A stretch of 64,000 nt of DNA, taken from Chitinophagaceae bacterium BSSC1 (GTDB taxonomy: Bacteria > Bacteroidota > Bacteroidia > Chitinophagales > Chitinophagaceae). Location: assembly GCA_002256435.1 (NCBI GenBank), contig NKJC01000001.1:868001-932000 (forward strand), in the 5' to 3' direction. A model generated the notes under the pieces. That model did not search any database. It had not been told where the DNA came from and saw only the letters and a program-made list of their open reading frames with translations. Made by a program: the position numbers and the translations under genes. Shown here in pieces: positions 8,608 through 33,279 of the stretch (the stretch's first letter is position 1; the number at the start of each line of letters is the position of its first letter).

Positions 8608-9387
8608 TTAAGCAAGGGTTGCTGCTGGCGCCTTCAATTTATCTAAAAATGTTTCTAGAATTTGATTGAACTCACCGGGAACTTCCATCATAGGTGCGTG
8701 ACCACATTTGTCTATAAAATGCAGTTCTGAATTGGGAATCAGCTTATTGAATTCTTGTCCAACAAATGGGGGTGTAATGCTGTCATTGTTTCCCCAGATC
8801 AATAAAGTAGGTTGCTTGATCCCACTAATTTCTTCACCCAGATTATTACGGATAGCACTTTTGGCTAGAGAAATAATCTTGATGACTTTGATCCTGTTAT
8901 TGGTAATTTCAAATACTTCGTCTACCAATTCTTTGGTGGCAGTAGCGGGATCATAGAAAGTAACCTGTGTTTTTTTCTTGATGTATTCGTAGTCACCACG
9001 TTTGGGATAACTATCGCCCATGCCATTTTCAAACAAGCCACTGCTACCAGTGAGAATGAGTGATTTAATTTTTTCTGGTTGTTTGAGTACGTGCACCAAG
9101 GCCACATGACCTCCCAATGAATTACCCAATAAATGAATATTGTTGTACCCACGTAGTTCAATAAACTTGTGTACGTGTTTTTGCAAACCGCCCACCGTGG
9201 TATGAAAAATGTCTAATTCAAATAGGGGCAATAAGGGTACAATTACTTTGTACTTTCCCCTAAAATGTTCTACCAAATCAGCAAAATTGCTAAGTGCACC
9301 AAAAAGCCCGTGTAACAATAAAAGCGGCTCTCCCTCTCCCTCCTCTATAAATTTGAATTTATCCTGTTGTTTGATCTCGTAATCCAT
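8608..9387 (-). CDS. Alpha/beta hydrolase
   Basis: 259 residues from the ATG at 9387 (MDYEIKQQDKFKFIEEG); the frame could extend to a GTG at 9432, but that adds an unconserved tail. It shows the oxyanion loop LLLLHGLFG, the nucleophile elbow LLGNSLGGH (Ser in GNSLGG), an acid in LLIWGNNDSITPP and the catalytic His in DKCGHAPMMEVP, so the triad is complete. The fold is that of MhpC/BioH-type esterases and hydrolases; no substrate can be assigned. It precedes the CBS gene by 28 bases on the same strand. Confidence 0.85.
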   Translation of the reverse strand: MDYEIKQQDKFKFIEEGEGEPLLLLHGLFGALSNFADLVEHFRGKYKVIVPLLPLFELDIFHTTVGGLQKHVHKFIELRGYNNIHLLGNSLGGHVALVHVLKQPEKIKSLILTGSSGLFENGMGDSYPKRGDYEYIKKKTQVTFYDPATATKELVDEVFEITNNRIKVIKIISLAKSAIRNNLGEEISGIKQPTLLIWGNNDSITPPFVGQEFNKLIPNSELHFIDKCGHAPMMEVPGEFNQILETFLDKLKAPAATLA

Positions 9388-9539
9388 GTTATAATTTCTT
9401 ATGCAAGCACGCTTGGTTTCATTTAACGGCACGGCCCAGATTTAAAACGCTTTTTCTCTTACAATCGTATCTGCATCTGCAAAATACAGATTTTAAGCTA
9501 AAACAGGGCAATTAGCGGCTTTATCAATAGGTTAAGGGC

Positions 9540-10073
9540 TTAGTTTTTGGCAATTCTTTCAAAAAACAAGGTCAATTCCTGAAAACTGTCCTTGAAAATG
9601 GGAATGACCTTTCCAAACCAATGCATCATGGTGGGAGCCAGAGATTCCAAGTAAGGATAGGCTTTTGAAGCGGATAGGTCTACCGATTGTAATAGTTGCA
9701 ACTGTTTGGCGTAAAAAAGCAGGATGCTAAAAACGGTCAGGTATAAAAAACCATAGACCAATACACCCCCCACCGTATTCAACCAACCCAATAAAACCAT
9801 TTCAAATGCGGCTTTTACCAAGGCTGCACCCATTCGCACCAATACCCAAACACCCAACATGATCAACAAAAAAGCCAAAAAGGGTAACCAGCCTGCGGCA
9901 ATATGGGTATAGTTGCCCAAGGCTTTGGCCAACATAGCACTTAATTTAAGTGCTGCTGCTAGCCCAATGAAAATGCCCAGAAAAGCAAACACCGCTACTA
10001 CAAGGCCTTTTTGAAAACCCTTGTAAATGGCAAGTGCCAGCAAAACCAGGCAAATCACATCTATGCTACCCAT
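9540..10073 (-). CDS. CvpA family membrane protein
   Basis: 177 residues, ATG start. MGSIDVICLVLLALAIYKGFQKGLV, read in two parts, is the typical CvpA opening, with a hydrophobic helix then YKGFQKGL. Four membrane segments follow (about residues 5-22, 28-48, 62-84, 100-122). The family is linked to colicin V production and envelope homeostasis in Proteobacteria; the biochemical role is unclear. The stop codon falls about 150 bases before the hydrolase start, and YqeY ends 8 bases upstream, so it is probably co-transcribed with yqeY and gldC. Confidence 0.85.
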   Translation of the reverse strand: MGSIDVICLVLLALAIYKGFQKGLVVAVFAFLGIFIGLAAALKLSAMLAKALGNYTHIAAGWLPFLAFLLIMLGVWVLVRMGAALVKAAFEMVLLGWLNTVGGVLVYGFLYLTVFSILLFYAKQLQLLQSVDLSASKAYPYLESLAPTMMHWFGKVIPIFKDSFQELTLFFERIAKN

Positions 10074-10080
10074 GCGGTGA

Positions 10081-10530
10081 TTATCCCAATAGGGTTTTTA
10101 CAGCTGCAGAAATGGCTTTGCCCTCGGCCTTGCCCGCCAATTGTTTGCTGGCAACACCCATTACTTTTCCCATGTCTTTGGCACCTGCGGCACCGGTTTC
10201 AGCAATGATGGCTTTTAAAGCAGCTTCTAATTCTTCTGCACTCATTTGTTGGGGCAGGAATTTTTCAATCACAGCAATCTCTTCTGATTCCTTGGCTGCT
10301 AAATCTGGTCTATTCTGTGTTTGATATATTTCTAAAGAGTCCTTTCTAGACTTTACCAGTTTTTGTAACAATTTGATTTCAGTATCTGCGTTAATTTCTC
10401 CGTTGGCTCCTGGCTCTGTTTTGGCCTTGATAATTTCAGCTTTAATAGCCCTCAAACCACGCAACAATGGTTCGTTCTTAGACTTCATGGCATCTTTCAT
10501 CTGGTCCATCACCTGTGTTTCTAAACTCAT
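10081..10530 (-). CDS. GatB/YqeY domain protein
   Basis: 149 residues beginning MSLETQVMDQMKDAMKSKN and rich in Lys, Glu and Ala helices; LRGLRAIKAEI, FLPQQMSAEELEAAL and KDMGKVMGVASKQLAGKA are typical of YqeY. The domain is related to the tRNA-binding tail of GatB and may take part in tRNA-dependent amidation or other tRNA binding, but its exact role is not settled. Small gaps to gldC (10 bases) and cvpA (7 bases) suggest one transcript. Confidence 0.9.
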   Translation of the reverse strand: MSLETQVMDQMKDAMKSKNEPLLRGLRAIKAEIIKAKTEPGANGEINADTEIKLLQKLVKSRKDSLEIYQTQNRPDLAAKESEEIAVIEKFLPQQMSAEELEAALKAIIAETGAAGAKDMGKVMGVASKQLAGKAEGKAISAAVKTLLG

Positions 10531-10540
10531 ATACTAGGTT

Positions 10541-10885
10541 TTATTTGTTCTCTTTTAATTGAATGTCTCTGAATTTTTTATAGAAATCCTTGGCATAAGC
10601 TTTCATTTCTTCCACCAATTCTGTTTGTTGGGTAGCCCGATGAAAAGTATCGGCCATGCCCATAAATGTTTGGTAATAAAAATCGGCCATCTCGTCTACC
10701 ATCATGTCTTTGGTCCAAAGGTCAATCCTTAGGGCAGACTTGTCTTGGGCGTCCCAAAAAGCCACCATCATAGACTTGGCGGGCTGCATGGCATCAGCGG
10801 TGGAGTCAGAAGCTGACCAGTTGATCTGATCCGGTACTTTGTTTTCATCTAAATGAATATCAATGGAAATGGTTGATTTGTGCAT
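10541..10885 (-). CDS. gldC: Gliding motility-associated protein GldC
   Basis: 114 residues, ATG start, no signal peptide. The sequence MHKSTISIDIHLDENKVPDQINW is, in two parts, a close match to the GldC opening; SALRIDLWTKDMMVDEMADFYYQTF and LVEEMKAYAKDFYKKF complete the family pattern. GldC is a cytoplasmic accessory factor associated with Bacteroidota gliding and GldB, and is restricted to this phylum. Other gliding genes are not adjacent. It starts a short minus-strand run with yqeY and cvpA. Confidence 0.88.
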   Translation of the reverse strand: MHKSTISIDIHLDENKVPDQINWSASDSTADAMQPAKSMMVAFWDAQDKSALRIDLWTKDMMVDEMADFYYQTFMGMADTFHRATQQTELVEEMKAYAKDFYKKFRDIQLKENK

Positions 10886-28011: not shown

Positions 28012-28116
28012 GTTATTTTGTTTATGTATTCAATCAATAATATAACCTCTAATCAAGGCTTTTGTTCTTAAAAAGCCTCTAAAGAAAAATTAATGCCAAT
28101 TTTGGGCCTTCCACCT

Positions 28117-28124
28117 TACATTTG
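28117..28124 (+). promoter_or_regulatory. Putative -7 box before carB
   Basis: TACATTTG followed by C matches the TAnnTTTG consensus. It lies 22 bases ahead of the ATG at 28147 but downstream of another in-frame ATG at 28093, so transcription from here would exclude the longer product and supports 28147 as the start. Confidence 0.5.
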
Positions 28125-28146
28125 CACAATTTATTTTTTTGCAACC

Positions 28147-29793
28147 ATGCCCAAAGACAATTCCATCAAATCAGTTTTAATCATCGGATCCGGTCCAATC
28201 ATTATTGGACAGGCCTGTGAATTCGATTATTCCGGCACCCAGGCCGCCAGAAGCCTACGTGAAGAGGGGATTAAAGTGATACTGATCAACAGCAACCCTG
28301 CTACTATCATGACCGATCCAATGATGGCTGACAAGGTTTACTTGCTTCCTTTGACCGTTGAAAGTATAGAAAAAATATTAGAAGAGAACCAAATAGATGC
28401 GGTTTTGCCCACAATGGGTGGTCAAACAGCCCTAAATCTCTGTAAAGAAGCGGACGAATTGGGTGTTTGGGAGCGCTATAACTGCCGTATGATTGGGGTA
28501 GACGTTGCCGCCATTGACACGGCAGAAGACAGGGAGAAGTTCCGTCAATTGATGGTGAAGATTGGTATGGCCGTGGCTCCAAGCCGTGTAGCCAACAGTT
28601 TTCTAGAAGGAAAAGAATTTGCCCAAGAAATTGGATTCCCACTGGTAATTCGACCATCTTTTACTTTGGGTGGAACCGGAGGCGGATTTGTACATACCAA
28701 GGATGATTTGGATGCGGCGCTGGAAAGAGGTTTGAAAGCATCACCTATTCACGAGGTATTGGTTGAAAAAGCCGTTTTGGGTTGGAAAGAATATGAATTG
28801 GAATTGCTGCGCGATCGTAATGACAATGTTGTTATTATCTGTACCGTAGAAAACCTTGACCCCATGGGTGTGCATACCGGAGATTCTATTACCGTAGCAC
28901 CCGCCATGACGCTGAGCGATACTGCTTTCCAAGAAATGCGTAATAAAGCCATGCTGATGATGCGATCCCTGGGTAATTTCTGGGGAGGATGTAACGTACA
29001 GTTTGCCTTGAACCCAGAAACCGAAGAACTGATTGCCGTAGAGATTAACCCGCGCGTAAGCCGTTCTTCTGCCCTAGCTTCTAAAGCAACCGGTTATCCT
29101 ATTGCCAAGATTGCGGCTAAACTAGCCATTGGCTATTCTTTGGATGAATTGAAAAACCAAATTACCCAGACTACATCGGCCTATTTTGAACCCGCATTGG
29201 ACTATGTAATTGTAAAAGTACCCCGTTGGAACTTTGACAAATTCAAAGGCGCTAATGACACTTTGGGTTTACAAATGAAGAGCGTGGGTGAGGTAATGGC
29301 CATTGGTCGTTGCTTTACAGAAGCTTTGCAAAAAGCCTGTCAGAGTTTGGAAAATGAAGCAGTTGGTTTGGGCTATTATGGTAAGAGTTTGATGAAGAGC
29401 GAGGAGATTGTAGAATATATCAAGACTCCAAAATGGGATAGGATTTTCAGGATCAAAGACGCGCTGATGCAGGGTTCTACCGTAAAATCCATCGCGCAAG
29501 CAACTGGGATTGACCGTTGGTTTTTGTACCAAATTCAGCAGATCTGCCATATTGAAAAAGAGATTGCCAATTATACCCTAGATACCATTCCTACTGCGCT
29601 ACTCAAAGAAGCCAAGAAAAATGGTTTCTCTGATATTCAGATAGTGAAGATTCTACAAAATACTTGTACAGAAGACGAAGTGTATGAGAAAAGAAAGGCC
29701 CTAGGCATTACCCGTGTCTACAAAATGGTGGATACCTGCGCAGCAGAGTTTGAAGCCAAAACTCCTTATTTCTACAGTAGTTTTGAGGGATAA
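28147..29793 (+). CDS. carB: Carbamoyl-phosphate synthase large chain, N-terminal half only
   Basis: 548 residues from the ATG at 28147 ([20 protein letters not shown]); an ATG at 28093 adds a hydrophobic leader and is less likely. It covers the carboxyphosphate ATP-grasp domain ([40 protein letters not shown]) and the oligomerisation domain, ending [21 protein letters not shown]. Full CarB has about 1,070 residues, and this end matches the natural midpoint. A terminator follows at once, so the second ATP-grasp half must be a separate gene, as in split CarB of Aquifex and methanogens. No frame continuation is seen. Confidence 0.88.
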
Positions 29794-29818: not shown

Positions 29819-29855
29819 AAGTCCTGCTAAAATTTTAGCGGGACTTTCTGTTTAA
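29819..29855 (+). terminator. Rho-independent terminator after carB
   Basis: AAGTCCTGCTAAAA pairs with TTTTAGCGGGACTT (29819-29846, one G-T wobble in 14 pairs, with little or no loop), followed by TTCTGTTT. The palindrome lies 26 bases after the carB stop. Confidence 0.8.
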
Positions 29856-29892: not shown

Positions 29893-32800
29893 ATGGCTCC
29901 CAAAGAACCCGTACAAATATTTCAGACCAATAACCCTACTCGCTGGCAGCGATTTAAGTGGGGAGGAAGGTTTATCCTGTTTTTAATGGTCATGGCCATT
30001 GCGGTAGTAACCATTGCCCTTAAGAACCTATACATGCCCAACCTACCACAGGTAAGGGGTCAGGTGATGAAAGAAGTATTGCAATCAGACAAACCCACTA
30101 CAGAACTTGCTAAGAATTACCAGGGTTTTAGAAAATTCATAGATGATAAATGGAAAAGAGGAGCCGGTTATAGACAGGAAGATAGTTTGGACAACCAAAT
30201 AGGTTCTTTGGCCAATATTGATAGCTTGGGAATTAGGGCTGCATTTTATGTGGCTTGGGATGCACAGGCATTTTTCTCCTTGAAAAGGAATATCAACAAA
30301 ATGAACTTGGTGATTCCCGAATGGTTTTTTCTGGATGCCAAGGGCGATTCTGTTTATACCAATATTGACAAACGTGGACAGGCTGTGATCAAGGCTTCTG
30401 GCGTGAAGGTCATGCCCATGCTCACCAATAATATCAATGGCGTTTTCCGAGGCGATGTGGTTCACCGAATTCTGAACAATCCAGCCAAAAAAGAAAAACT
30501 GATTTCAGACCTAATTAGGCTCATCAAACAAAACGGTTTTGTAGGAATCAATATTGATCTAGAAGAATTAATTGAAGAGAACAATGAGACCCTAAGCAAT
30601 TTTCAAAAGGAATTGTATACCCGTTTTCACGCTGAGAATTTATTGGTCTCACAAGACGTGATGCCTTTTAACGAGGACTACGAATACAGCGCCTTGGGCA
30701 AATACAATGACTATGTTTTTCTAATGGCTTATGATGAACACAGCTCTGATACCAAACCCGGGCCCATTAGTTCACAAAGATGGATTGAAGCAGCCGTTGA
30801 CCAGATGGCCAAAAAAGTGCCCATGCACAAAATTGTATTGTGTATGGCGGCATATGGTTATGACTGGGTAAAAGGAGGTGAGGGCGTAGACGTTACCTAT
30901 CAACAAGCACTCACCATTGCCAGAGAAAGTGAGGGTAAAGTGATCTATGACAATGACACGTATAATTTGAAATACCATTATTGGGATGAGTATGACAAAT
31001 ACCACGAAGTGCATTTTACGGATGCAGCTACCAACTTTAATACTTTGCGTTTTGCCACTGAATATCCACTAGCAGGAACAGCGCTTTGGAGAATGGGTAG
31101 TGAAGACAGTAGGATCTGGGACTTCTACCACAAATCCATGAGCAGAAAGGCTTTGGAGAAATTTGATTTTACAGAATTCAACAAAGTAGAAGCAACGGAT
31201 GATGTGGATTTTATGGGAGACGGAGAAATTCTTGATGTACTCTCTACGCCTCGTGAAGGGCATATCACCCCAGAGATGGATCTGGAACAAATGCTGATTA
31301 GTGAAGAGCGTTATGATAGCTTACCTAGCATGTTTGTGGTTAAACAAATGGGACGCGCAACGGGTAAAAAATTGGTGCTCACTTTTGACGACGGACCAGA
31401 CCCTGTGTATACCAAACAGATCTTAGACATACTAGCCAAATACAAAGTGCCCGCTAGTTTTTTTGTGGTGGGGTTAGAAGCAGAGAATAATATCCCCTTA
31501 GTCAAACGCATTTTTAATGAGGGACATGAATTAGGGAATCACACATTTACGCATCCCAATATGGCCAAAGTGAGCAGACAGCGGGCGCTCTTAGAAATGG
31601 ATGCTACTAGGCTACTCATAGAATGTATTACAGGTCATAGCACCATCATGTTCCGCGCTCCCTTTAATGCCGATGCCCAACCAGAAAAAATGGAAGAATT
31701 GATTCCGGTGGCACTAAGCAGGACCAGAAACTATTTGACCATTGGAGAAAATATTGACCCAGAAGACTGGGCTGTAGATGAAGTGCCGCATTTTAATGCA
31801 GACACCATTTTTAATAGGGTAATGCAATTAAAAGACAGGGGCAATATTATTTTGTTGCACGATGCGGGCGGAGACAGAAGACCCACCGTAGAAGCCCTTC
31901 CAAGAATTATTGAAGCCCTACAAAAAGAGGGTTACACATTTACAACAGTAGCAGATTTATTGGGTAAGAAAAAAGAAGACCTGATGCCACCCGTACCTCC
32001 AGGAAGTGGTTATAAATTGCTTCAGTTCAACAGCTTTTTGGCAGAGTTGGGTTATTATACGGGACAATTATTTTATGCACTCTTTGTCATCTTCTTAATC
32101 TTGGGTAGTATTAGATTAATCATGATGTTGGGTCTTTCTATTTTGCAACGCAAAAAGGAAAAAGCCAATGCCTTGCTACCCTTTGTAGGAACCCCCTTGG
32201 TTTCCATTATTGTACCTGCTTATAATGAAGAAGTAAATGCAGTAAGCTCATTAGAGAACCTACTCAAATGTGACTATCCCAATTTTAATATTGTGTTTGT
32301 AGATGATGGGAGCAAGGACCAGACTTTTGAAAAAGTGTCTGCTACTTTTGCAAACCATCCCAAAGTACAGGTCTTTAGCAAACCCAATGGTGGCAAAGCT
32401 TCAGCACTTAACTATGGCATTGCACAAACCAATGCCGAATACGTGGTTTGTATAGACGCTGACACCAAACTCTTGACCGATGCCGTGAGTAAACTCATGG
32501 TGCATTTTAGAAATGAGCAAGTTGGCGCCGTGGCTGGAAATGTAAAAGTGGGTAATGAAGTAAACATACTTACGCGTTGGCAGAGCATTGAATATATTTC
32601 TAGTCAGAACGTAGACAGAAAAGCATTTGCTTATTTGAATGCCATTACGGTGGTGCCTGGTGCAATTGGTGCGTTTAGAAAAGAAGCCATTGAAACAGCG
32701 GGTGGATTTAGTACCGATACCTTGGCCGAAGACTGTGACCTAACCATTCGAATTCTGCGTTGTGGTTATTTAATAGACAATGAGAACAAAGCCATTGCCA

Positions 32801-33279
32801 TGACCGAAGCCCCAGAAACCTTGAGTCAGTTTATGAAGCAACGTTTCCGCTGGACTTTTGGGGTGATGCAAACATTCTGGAAAAACAGAGATGCACTCTT
32901 TAATGTGCGTTACAAAACCTTGGGTTGGTTGGCCCTGCCCGATATTTTGTTGTTCAAATACATTATTCCATTGTTTGCACCACTGGCAGATCTATTGATG
33001 CTGATTGGACTATTCACGGGCAATGCAGAAAAAATTGGGGTCTATTACCTGATTTTTATGCTGGTAGACGCTGCCATTGCAGCACTAGCCTTCTTCTTTG
33101 AGAAAGAGCCTTTGTGGAAACTGATCTGGCTCTTACCTCAGCGATTAATCTATAGGTGGTTGATGCTGGTAGTATTATTTAAGACTTATAGAAAGGCGCT
33201 TAAGGGAGAATTACAACACTGGGGCGTACTCAAGCGCACGGGCAATGTAAAAGACGTAGCAACAGCTTCAGAAACTTAA
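29893..33279 (+). CDS. GH18-like / polysaccharide deacetylase / GT2 fusion protein for exopolysaccharide synthesis
   Basis: 1128 residues, ATG start. Order of parts: an N-terminal membrane helix (about 23-45); a GH18-type domain (about 95-420, GFVGINIDLEEL, with the catalytic-type D-x-E at 217-225); a NodB deacetylase (about 490-680, LVLTFDDGPDPVYTKQILD, HTFTHPNM, LLHDAGG); a membrane helix (715-750); a GT2 synthase (LVSIIVPAYNEEVNA near 768, VCIDADTKL, LAEDCDL, QRFRWTFG near 983); and C-terminal membrane helices (1015-1095). By family logic it polymerises an N-acetylhexosamine chain and deacetylates or trims it outside, a one-polypeptide counterpart of PgaB plus PgaC. The polymer is unknown. 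Confidence 0.9.
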   Translation: MAPKEPVQIFQTNNPTRWQRFKWGGRFILFLMVMAIAVVTIALKNLYMPNLPQVRGQVMKEVLQSDKPTTELAKNYQGFRKFIDDKWKRGAGYRQEDSLDNQIGSLANIDSLGIRAAFYVAWDAQAFFSLKRNINKMNLVIPEWFFLDAKGDSVYTNIDKRGQAVIKASGVKVMPMLTNNINGVFRGDVVHRILNNPAKKEKLISDLIRLIKQNGFVGINIDLEELIEENNETLSNFQKELYTRFHAENLLVSQDVMPFNEDYEYSALGKYNDYVFLMAYDEHSSDTKPGPISSQRWIEAAVDQMAKKVPMHKIVLCMAAYGYDWVKGGEGVDVTYQQALTIARESEGKVIYDNDTYNLKYHYWDEYDKYHEVHFTDAATNFNTLRFATEYPLAGTALWRMGSEDSRIWDFYHKSMSRKALEKFDFTEFNKVEATDDVDFMGDGEILDVLSTPREGHITPEMDLEQMLISEERYDSLPSMFVVKQMGRATGKKLVLTFDDGPDPVYTKQILDILAKYKVPASFFVVGLEAENNIPLVKRIFNEGHELGNHTFTHPNMAKVSRQRALLEMDATRLLIECITGHSTIMFRAPFNADAQPEKMEELIPVALSRTRNYLTIGENIDPEDWAVDEVPHFNADTIFNRVMQLKDRGNIILLHDAGGDRRPTVEALPRIIEALQKEGYTFTTVADLLGKKKEDLMPPVPPGSGYKLLQFNSFLAELGYYTGQLFYALFVIFLILGSIRLIMMLGLSILQRKKEKANALLPFVGTPLVSIIVPAYNEEVNAVSSLENLLKCDYPNFNIVFVDDGSKDQTFEKVSATFANHPKVQVFSKPNGGKASALNYGIAQTNAEYVVCIDADTKLLTDAVSKLMVHFRNEQVGAVAGNVKVGNEVNILTRWQSIEYISSQNVDRKAFAYLNAITVVPGAIGAFRKEAIETAGGFSTDTLAEDCDLTIRILRCGYLIDNENKAIAMTEAPETLSQFMKQRFRWTFGVMQTFWKNRDALFNVRYKTLGWLALPDILLFKYIIPLFAPLADLLMLIGLFTGNAEKIGVYYLIFMLVDAAIAALAFFFEKEPLWKLIWLLPQRLIYRWLMLVVLFKTYRKALKGELQHWGVLKRTGNVKDVATASET

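Follow-up and report, generated by a model that had tools for sequence, protein, structure and literature searches.

In the window analysed here, a 64,000-nucleotide stretch of the Chitinophagaceae bacterium BSSC1 genome (4.34 Mb, 6 contigs), one intact open reading frame on the + strand runs from an ATG at 29893 to a stop codon ending at 33279, without an internal stop, and encodes a protein of 1128 amino acids (aa). From N- to C-terminus this protein joins a GH18, a CE4 and a GT2 domain, and each scores above its Pfam curated cut-off: Glyco_hydro_18 (PF00704) at residues 189-402 (E = 1.9e-19; 70.9 bits versus a gathering cut-off of 29.6), Polysacc_deac_1 at residues 489-591 (E = 3.1e-29) and Glycos_transf_2 at residues 771-934 (E = 1.6e-29). 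A first-pass annotation, made from the sequence, had the three domains, their order and the coordinates right. We rejected a frameshift artefact, as proteins of equal length recur in other genomes. Nor is the architecture a product of chance, because near-full-length homologues recur in the Bacteroidota and three-domain proteins occur in Deinococcus and Sphingomonas. The parts of the protein lie in the window as follows.

29893..33279, + strand: GH18-CE4-GT2 protein, 1128 aa (coordinates include the stop codon)
29965..30021, + strand: first membrane helix (TM1), residues 25-43, N-terminus inside by prediction (own and family-average hydropathy, charge bias)
30226..31137, + strand: GH18 TIM barrel, residues ~112-415, periplasmic by prediction (Pfam match at 189-402, structure model, VIA-align Z of 36.5 to 5jh8)
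30544..30564, + strand: GH18 site G-I-N-I-D-L-E, residues 218-224 (conservation across 63 members)
31198..31350, + strand: small all-beta segment between GH18 and CE4, residues ~436-486 (full-length model; no Pfam family there)
31357..31971, + strand: CE4 (NodB-type) deacetylase, residues 489-693 (Pfam, profile matches, conservation)
32005..32166, + strand: long helix, residues 705-758, with the second membrane helix (TM2, 730-748) (hydropathy, full-length model)
32194..32883, + strand: GT2 synthase domain, residues 768-997, with DDG, DxD, ED and QxxRW (Pfam, NCBIfam, conservation)
32905..33210, + strand: C-terminal membrane helices, residues 1005-1106 (hydropathy, full-length model)

To define the family, we started from the 116 of 123 loci that match at E 1e-60 and dropped six with fewer than 950 residues aligned (L016, L047, L056, L120, L121, L122). 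The remaining 110 relatives and the window protein were reduced to 63 members under 90% identity, and the window protein is included in all counts. Since 59 of these 63 non-redundant members are from Bacteroidota, the counts speak mainly for that phylum. Among the best 80 of 147 relatives, the closest matches come from Bacteroidota metagenome-assembled genomes (MAGs; 95-98% identity), followed by Chitinophagaceae and unplaced Bacteroidetes MAGs (79-82%) and then Sediminibacterium (65-71%), which would place the host within Chitinophagaceae close to Sediminibacterium. Sediminibacterium magnilacihabitans DSM 22423 (L039) and Hydrotalea sandarakina DSM 23241 (L042) are among the strains with a homologue. 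With the source genome included each time, matches were found in 19 of 60 near genomes (E 1e-30; all from one genus group), 16 of 296 Bacteroidota genomes (E 1e-100) and 25 of 396 Bacteroidia genomes (E 1e-60). Seventeen of the 19 cover nearly the whole protein, one of them with an internal stop; the other two are partial matches. The 25 Bacteroidia matches start at residue 6-8 (residue 1 in the source genome) and end at 1119 or beyond, save two at 1043; all of them span the three parts, with the proviso that scoring was limited to the best candidates in each genome, so that split forms could escape.

Plasmids carry the family too. At E 1e-40, 28 plasmid records match; in 21 of them the match extends over 80% of the protein or more, and these come from Prevotella, Deinococcus, Novosphingobium, Sphingomonas, Sphingobium, Sulfitobacter and Limimaricola. 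All three Pfam domains are present in the Deinococcus (L117; 37% identity) and Sphingomonas (L118; 35%) proteins. Records from Kocuria and Streptomyces match over CE4-GT2 only, and one record each from Sphingomonas, Deinococcus and Halorussus matches over GT2 only. In Kocuria, an annotated chitinase gene adjoins on the opposite strand; its GH18 match is weak (22.9 bits, below the cut-off).

The GT2 domain has the marks of a processive synthase, namely DDG, DxD, ED and QxxRW followed by C-terminal membrane helices, and its catalytic residues (D805, D855, D857, E946, D947, Q983, R986 and W987) are each found in 63/63 members. Among the NCBIfam models, PgaC_IcaA scored best (199.5 bits), ahead of NodC (101.1) and CelA (82.1). 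When the whole genome was scanned with PgaC_IcaA, the window GT2 was again the best match (201.9 bits), with the runner-up at 88.9. This and another weaker PgaC-type match, at 85.6 bits (G000:C2:1033177-1034400 and G000:C3:389403-390449), sit in very long frames of 1168 and 1230 aa.

The deacetylase also keeps its catalytic residues. D499, D500, H550 and H554 are invariant (63/63), as are R588, P590, D625, W626, L654 and H656 in the NodB-type motifs; we take the metal triad to be D-H-H and the motifs to have the roles usual in the NodB-type family. Profile scores were highest for PdaB (137.8 bits), PgdA (127.1) and NodB (118.2). The PgaB model (TIGR03938) gave 17.8 bits versus a cut-off of 321.9, compared to 880.0 bits for the E. 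coli PgaB control. By these profiles, the deacetylase is of the PdaB/PgdA/NodB type and not of the PgaB type. Between it and GH18 lies the all-beta segment, which has five strands in the full-length model (438-442, 446-451, 456-463, 468-476 and 481-486); Pfam finds nothing there, and some of its glycines are invariant.

The GH18 part is the sole GH18 match in the genome. Modelled alone (residues 100-430, 20 sequences), it is predicted to form a (beta/alpha)8 barrel (predicted local distance difference test score, pLDDT, 89.9; predicted template modelling score, pTM, 0.89), in line with the TIM barrel expected at first pass. VIA-align placed this model closest to the Chromobacterium violaceum chitinase 5jh8 (Z of 36.5; 2.0 Å over 302 residues), followed by SleL 4s3j (Z of 35.9) and 4q6t (Z of 35.1), where rows within 1 Z count as tied. 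Foldseek with the full-length model likewise put 5jh8 and SleL on top, with the hyaluronan synthase 8smm lower down.

In the motif G-I-N-I-D-L-E, D222 and E224 are present and Asn stands at 220; the strand-6 pair Y280 and D281 is present as well. We assume the usual GH18 roles here, with the catalytic Glu in DxE and Tyr-Asp on strand 6. D222 is found in 63/63 members, D281 in 62/63, E224 in 61/63 and N220 in 58/63. Asn220 is lacking in five members: L104, which is a Bacteroidota MAG, and the four proteins from outside the phylum (Deinococcus, Sphingomonas, Sphingobium and Sulfitobacter). The five solved relatives displayed, SleL among them, carry T, N, H, V and H at this position, none of them Asp. 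Judging from this alignment, Bacteroidota as a rule have Asn at 220, and the position is free elsewhere. The first-pass annotation read the motif correctly, including the retained D-x-E pair, and erred in treating Asn as an unusual replacement of Asp. For the same reasons, and because SleL appears as a glucosaminidase in a table of PMC10653849, we rejected Asn220 as a sign of lost activity. Retention of E224 in 61/63 members suggests catalysis by GH18. The barrel is also the catalytic domain freest to vary among the three, with a median identity to the window protein of 56%, compared to 69% for CE4 and 75% for GT2. In one Chitinophagaceae MAG (L064), Ser takes the place of E224; this is a single case, and a sequencing fault is possible.

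The roseobacters depart from this pattern. Nine plasmid records (eight Sulfitobacter, one Limimaricola) belong here, and five were examined (L119, L120, L143, L144 and L145). In all five, Ser stands in the place of E224, the strand-6 motif is altered and Pfam finds no GH18 match, although both CE4 and GT2 score well; the L120 annotation splits off GT2 as a separate gene behind the CE4 gene. Sphingomonad homologues (L118, L123, L146, L147 and L148) keep D-x-E. One of these, Sphingobium L148, has no Pfam GH18 match though D-x-E is kept, and hence a missing match is not in itself evidence of a dead site. The persistence of a barrel lacking its acid in roseobacters argues, at the level of sequence, that the domain may bind or guide the chain beside cutting it.

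Hydropathy peaks at residues 25-43, 730-748 and several places between 1010 and 1095; a weaker peak (758-776) overlaps the start of GT2 and is absent from the family average. Across the 63 members, K and R make up 20% of residues before TM1 and 16% after, D and E make up 2% before and 10% after, and at TM2 the K and R content goes from 8% before to 26% after. These values fit a predicted topology in which the N-terminus is inside, residues 45 to ~715 are outside and GT2 is inside. The earlier proposal that GT2 is cytoplasmic while CE4 and GH18 lie outside on the same chain thus holds by prediction, and the deacetylase is not placed in the cytoplasm. The full-length model has a pLDDT of 79.7 and a pTM of 0.54, and we trust its individual domains.

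We propose, with a probability of roughly 70%, that the protein is an inner-membrane single-chain machine making partly deacetylated, cationic poly-N-acetylglucosamine (poly-GlcNAc). GT2 in the cytoplasm would join GlcNAc from uridine diphosphate (UDP)-GlcNAc into a beta-linked polymer, which would leave by way of the membrane helices. On the outer side, the tethered CE4 would strip part of the acetyl groups from the emerging chain, and the GH18 barrel would bind and probably cut it, setting chain length or releasing the chain. The domain order, the intactness of the motifs, the barrel fold and the topology (both predicted) and the conservation were computed; the sugar, the linkage, processivity, the order of steps and outer-membrane export are what we infer.

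Several results weigh against this proposal. The GT2 falls well below the PgaC/IcaA equivalog cut-off (TIGR03937; 199.5 versus 422.3 bits). In a 25-row GT2 tree, which included actinobacterial CE4-GT2 proteins and left out Streptomyces MatB, it groups with Bacteroidota proteins, apart from the PgaC/IcaA clade; the forks among Bacteroidota, Deinococcus, sphingomonad, roseobacter and actinobacterial proteins stay open, with a long-branch warning. Because of the sub-threshold score and the separate clade, the sugar is deduced rather than read from the GT2 family. Cutting by GH18 cannot be general, given that the acid is missing from 5/5 examined roseobacter homologues. The contrast in K and R across TM1 is weak (20% versus 16%), and with a pTM of 0.54 the model does not reliably show how the outer domains lie over the GT2 channel. 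For PgaA (TIGR03939), the best of 18 weak matches in the source genome reached 25.8 bits versus a cut-off of 366.65 (PgaD was not searched). Finally, no widely conserved partner gene emerged, the commonest neighbour family occurring at 16 of 63 loci (62 relatives and the window).

For that reason, and because the neighbour families inspected read as housekeeping, e.g. a transketolase half and a carB half (named by eye), we rejected a conserved operon. The next gene, 74 bases past the stop, reads by eye as the C-terminal half of transketolase. Upstream, one further feature was noted.

29819..29846, + strand: terminator-like hairpin upstream of the gene (12-pair stem, consensus match only)

Terminator-like sites number 6 in the region, compared to a shuffle mean of 3.7 (sd 1.9). 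The gene is perhaps on its own transcript, separated by this hairpin from the upstream carB. The latter is split: the 566-aa N half is the upstream neighbour, at window positions 28093-29793, and the C half is a 412-aa open frame ~976 kb away (G000:C2:1873961-1875139). Neither half passes the family cut-off alone. Split carB occurs in a few other prokaryotes, and the family with the N-half frame recurs near the gene at 15/63 loci.

A DUF3131 gene lies downstream in four of the five roseobacter loci (the exception is L120). The sphingomonad loci L118, L123 and L148 adjoin VirJ/AcvB, lysyl-phosphatidylglycerol synthase and two-component genes; the L123 annotation calls the first two hypothetical, which makes them candidates only. 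Behind the Sphingobium TomTYG64 gene come two others, one for a VirJ-family protein (PF06057 at 87.9 bits) and one for a lysyl-phosphatidylglycerol synthase (PF09924 at 302 bits). The Sphingomonas parapaucimobilis homologue has mprF, a two-component pair and a gene for an AcvB/VirJ hydrolase around it. There is a hint in these two genera of a common purpose, in that the glycan synthase and lysyl-phosphatidylglycerol genes would each lower the negative charge of the surface. The genes adjoining the two Novosphingobium homologues carry no annotation. The homologue of Deinococcus sp. KNUC1210 (L117) is directly followed by a diguanylate cyclase gene (9327-10862; GAF, GGDEF), a possible hint of control by cyclic diguanylate (c-di-GMP).

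GH18 and NodB-type CE4 families are mainly tied to beta-1,4-GlcNAc substrates, and so a beta-1,6 linkage can be proposed at most. Characterised GH18 enzymes cut beta-1,4 bonds. We nevertheless consider the beta-1,6 polymer, poly-beta-1,6-GlcNAc (PNAG), somewhat more likely, with a beta-1,4 polymer as a live rival. The sharper form of our proposal, which we hold at a little under an even chance, is that the protein makes PNAG, as do MatB and PgaC/IcaA, and that GH18 serves chiefly to bind or guide the chain, or else cuts beta-1,6 bonds, which would be unusual. The GT2 is closest to PgaC_IcaA, and the GH18 acid is dispensable in the examined roseobacters. The Kocuria CE4-GT2 protein has a like mix, with a PgaC_IcaA GT2 (205.3 bits) and a PdaB-type CE4 (108.4 bits), and MatB, which shares that mix, has been tied to PNAG (PMC5972031). 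Against PNAG stand the retention of the GH18 acid in 61/63 members, the beta-1,4 habit of characterised GH18 enzymes, the GT2 tree and the lack of a match to the known PNAG deacetylase PgaB (17.8 bits).

The other form of the proposal, which we regard as rather unlikely, has a chitin- or chitosan-like beta-1,4 product, making the protein a one-piece bacterial chitosan synthase with a built-in chitinase. This would suit a CE4 that scores best as PdaB, PgdA and NodB and poorly as PgaB, itself described as beta-1,6-acting in E. coli (PMC5855634), and a GH18 nearest to chitinases and SleL. However, the GT2 scores NodC at half of PgaC_IcaA, NodC sits on a long outside branch of the tree (in a region flagged unsafe), and the CE4 of MatB also resembles PgdA and NodB, yet MatB makes PNAG (PMC5972031). 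A more elaborate version, distinctly unlikely in our estimation, is a porin-free chitosan synthase on one polypeptide, with CE4 and GH18 deacetylating and sizing the beta-1,4 chain at the membrane face for surface charge control, and with the roseobacter barrel as a non-cutting chain guide; such a role would explain the place beside lysyl-phosphatidylglycerol genes in sphingomonads.

The idea that CE4 and GH18 act on peptidoglycan and are merely anchored by a GT2 making an unrelated glycan draws on the PgdA/PdaA relatives of CE4 and on the closeness of GH18 to SleL, given as a glucosaminidase in a table of PMC10653849, but is very improbable given that all 25 Bacteroidia matches, as scored above, span the three parts and 21 of the 28 matched plasmid records reach a coverage of 80% or more, a linkage kept so long that it suggests a shared substrate.

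The architecture itself is not new, having been listed in two genome papers. A GH18-CE4-GT2 protein of Acetivibrio cellulolyticus (ZP_09465738) is tabulated in PMC3413522, and a 'CE4-GH18-GT2' protein of Sphingobacterium multivorum w15 is mentioned in PMC7065263. Both have the same three CAZy families, in the same written order for Acetivibrio; the entries list them without a function, and we liken them to the window protein by description alone. In the open-licence papers searched, we found no functional study or activity test of a three-part protein. The Bacillus sporulation proteins SleL, YaaH and YdhD are among the closest GH18 sequences or folds and also lack Asp at the Asn220 position; their solved chains have no synthase part.

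PgaB plus PgaC of E. coli and IcaB plus IcaA likewise pair a deacetylase with a synthase, and PgaB has a hydrolase barrel too, of GH18-like fold without GH18 motifs (PMC5933820). In the pga system, PgaB and PgaC are separate proteins, alongside PgaA and PgaD. The first-pass annotation equated the window protein with PgaB plus PgaC, the hydrolase alone being swapped. This equation stands insofar as the GT2 is PgaC/IcaA-like and the hydrolase is not PgaB-type. It fails in that the CE4 is not PgaB-type either, the hydrolase-deacetylase order is reversed and no PgaA match exceeds the cut-off in the source genome. On a Staphylococcus hominis plasmid (L151), a family-20 glycosylhydrolase gene (1-558), possibly for a dispersin-like PNAG hydrolase, lies directly upstream of icaA, icaD and icaB. 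Related in build are the Gram-negative glycosyltransferase fusions to PgaB/IcaB-like deacetylases in PMC7112194, which are without detectable pgaA/pgaD and for which the inner membrane face was suggested. As here, synthase and deacetylase are fused and no porin was found. These fusions are described as lacking the canonical hydrolase domain and as mainly glycosyltransferases where N-terminal, and a legend also names C-terminal putative hydrolase fusions; in the window protein, the glycosyltransferase is C-terminal and GH18 N-terminal.

The nearest studied protein by design is MatB of Streptomyces, a CE4-GT2 protein whose gene is described as deacetylase-GT2 in PMC4391728. Its GT2 had PgaC as top hit and its CE4 had PgdA, with NodB among the further hits; the authors predicted a 1,4 or 1,6 linkage and showed, with antibody F598 and dispersin B, that MatB is needed for PNAG (PMC5972031). 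Like MatB, the window protein has, in order, a CE4 outside, a helix and a PgaC-like GT2 inside (topology predicted here). Unlike it, MatB works with a partner, MatA, in a Gram-positive envelope, and the published passages on it describe no GH18. The window protein is a compact, recurring candidate for producing partly deacetylated poly-GlcNAc without a recognisable PgaA porin, as in the source genome. Together, MatB without GH18, the window protein with an intact GH18 and the roseobacter proteins without the GH18 acid form a natural set that allows the role of a hydrolase inside a polysaccharide synthase to be tested.

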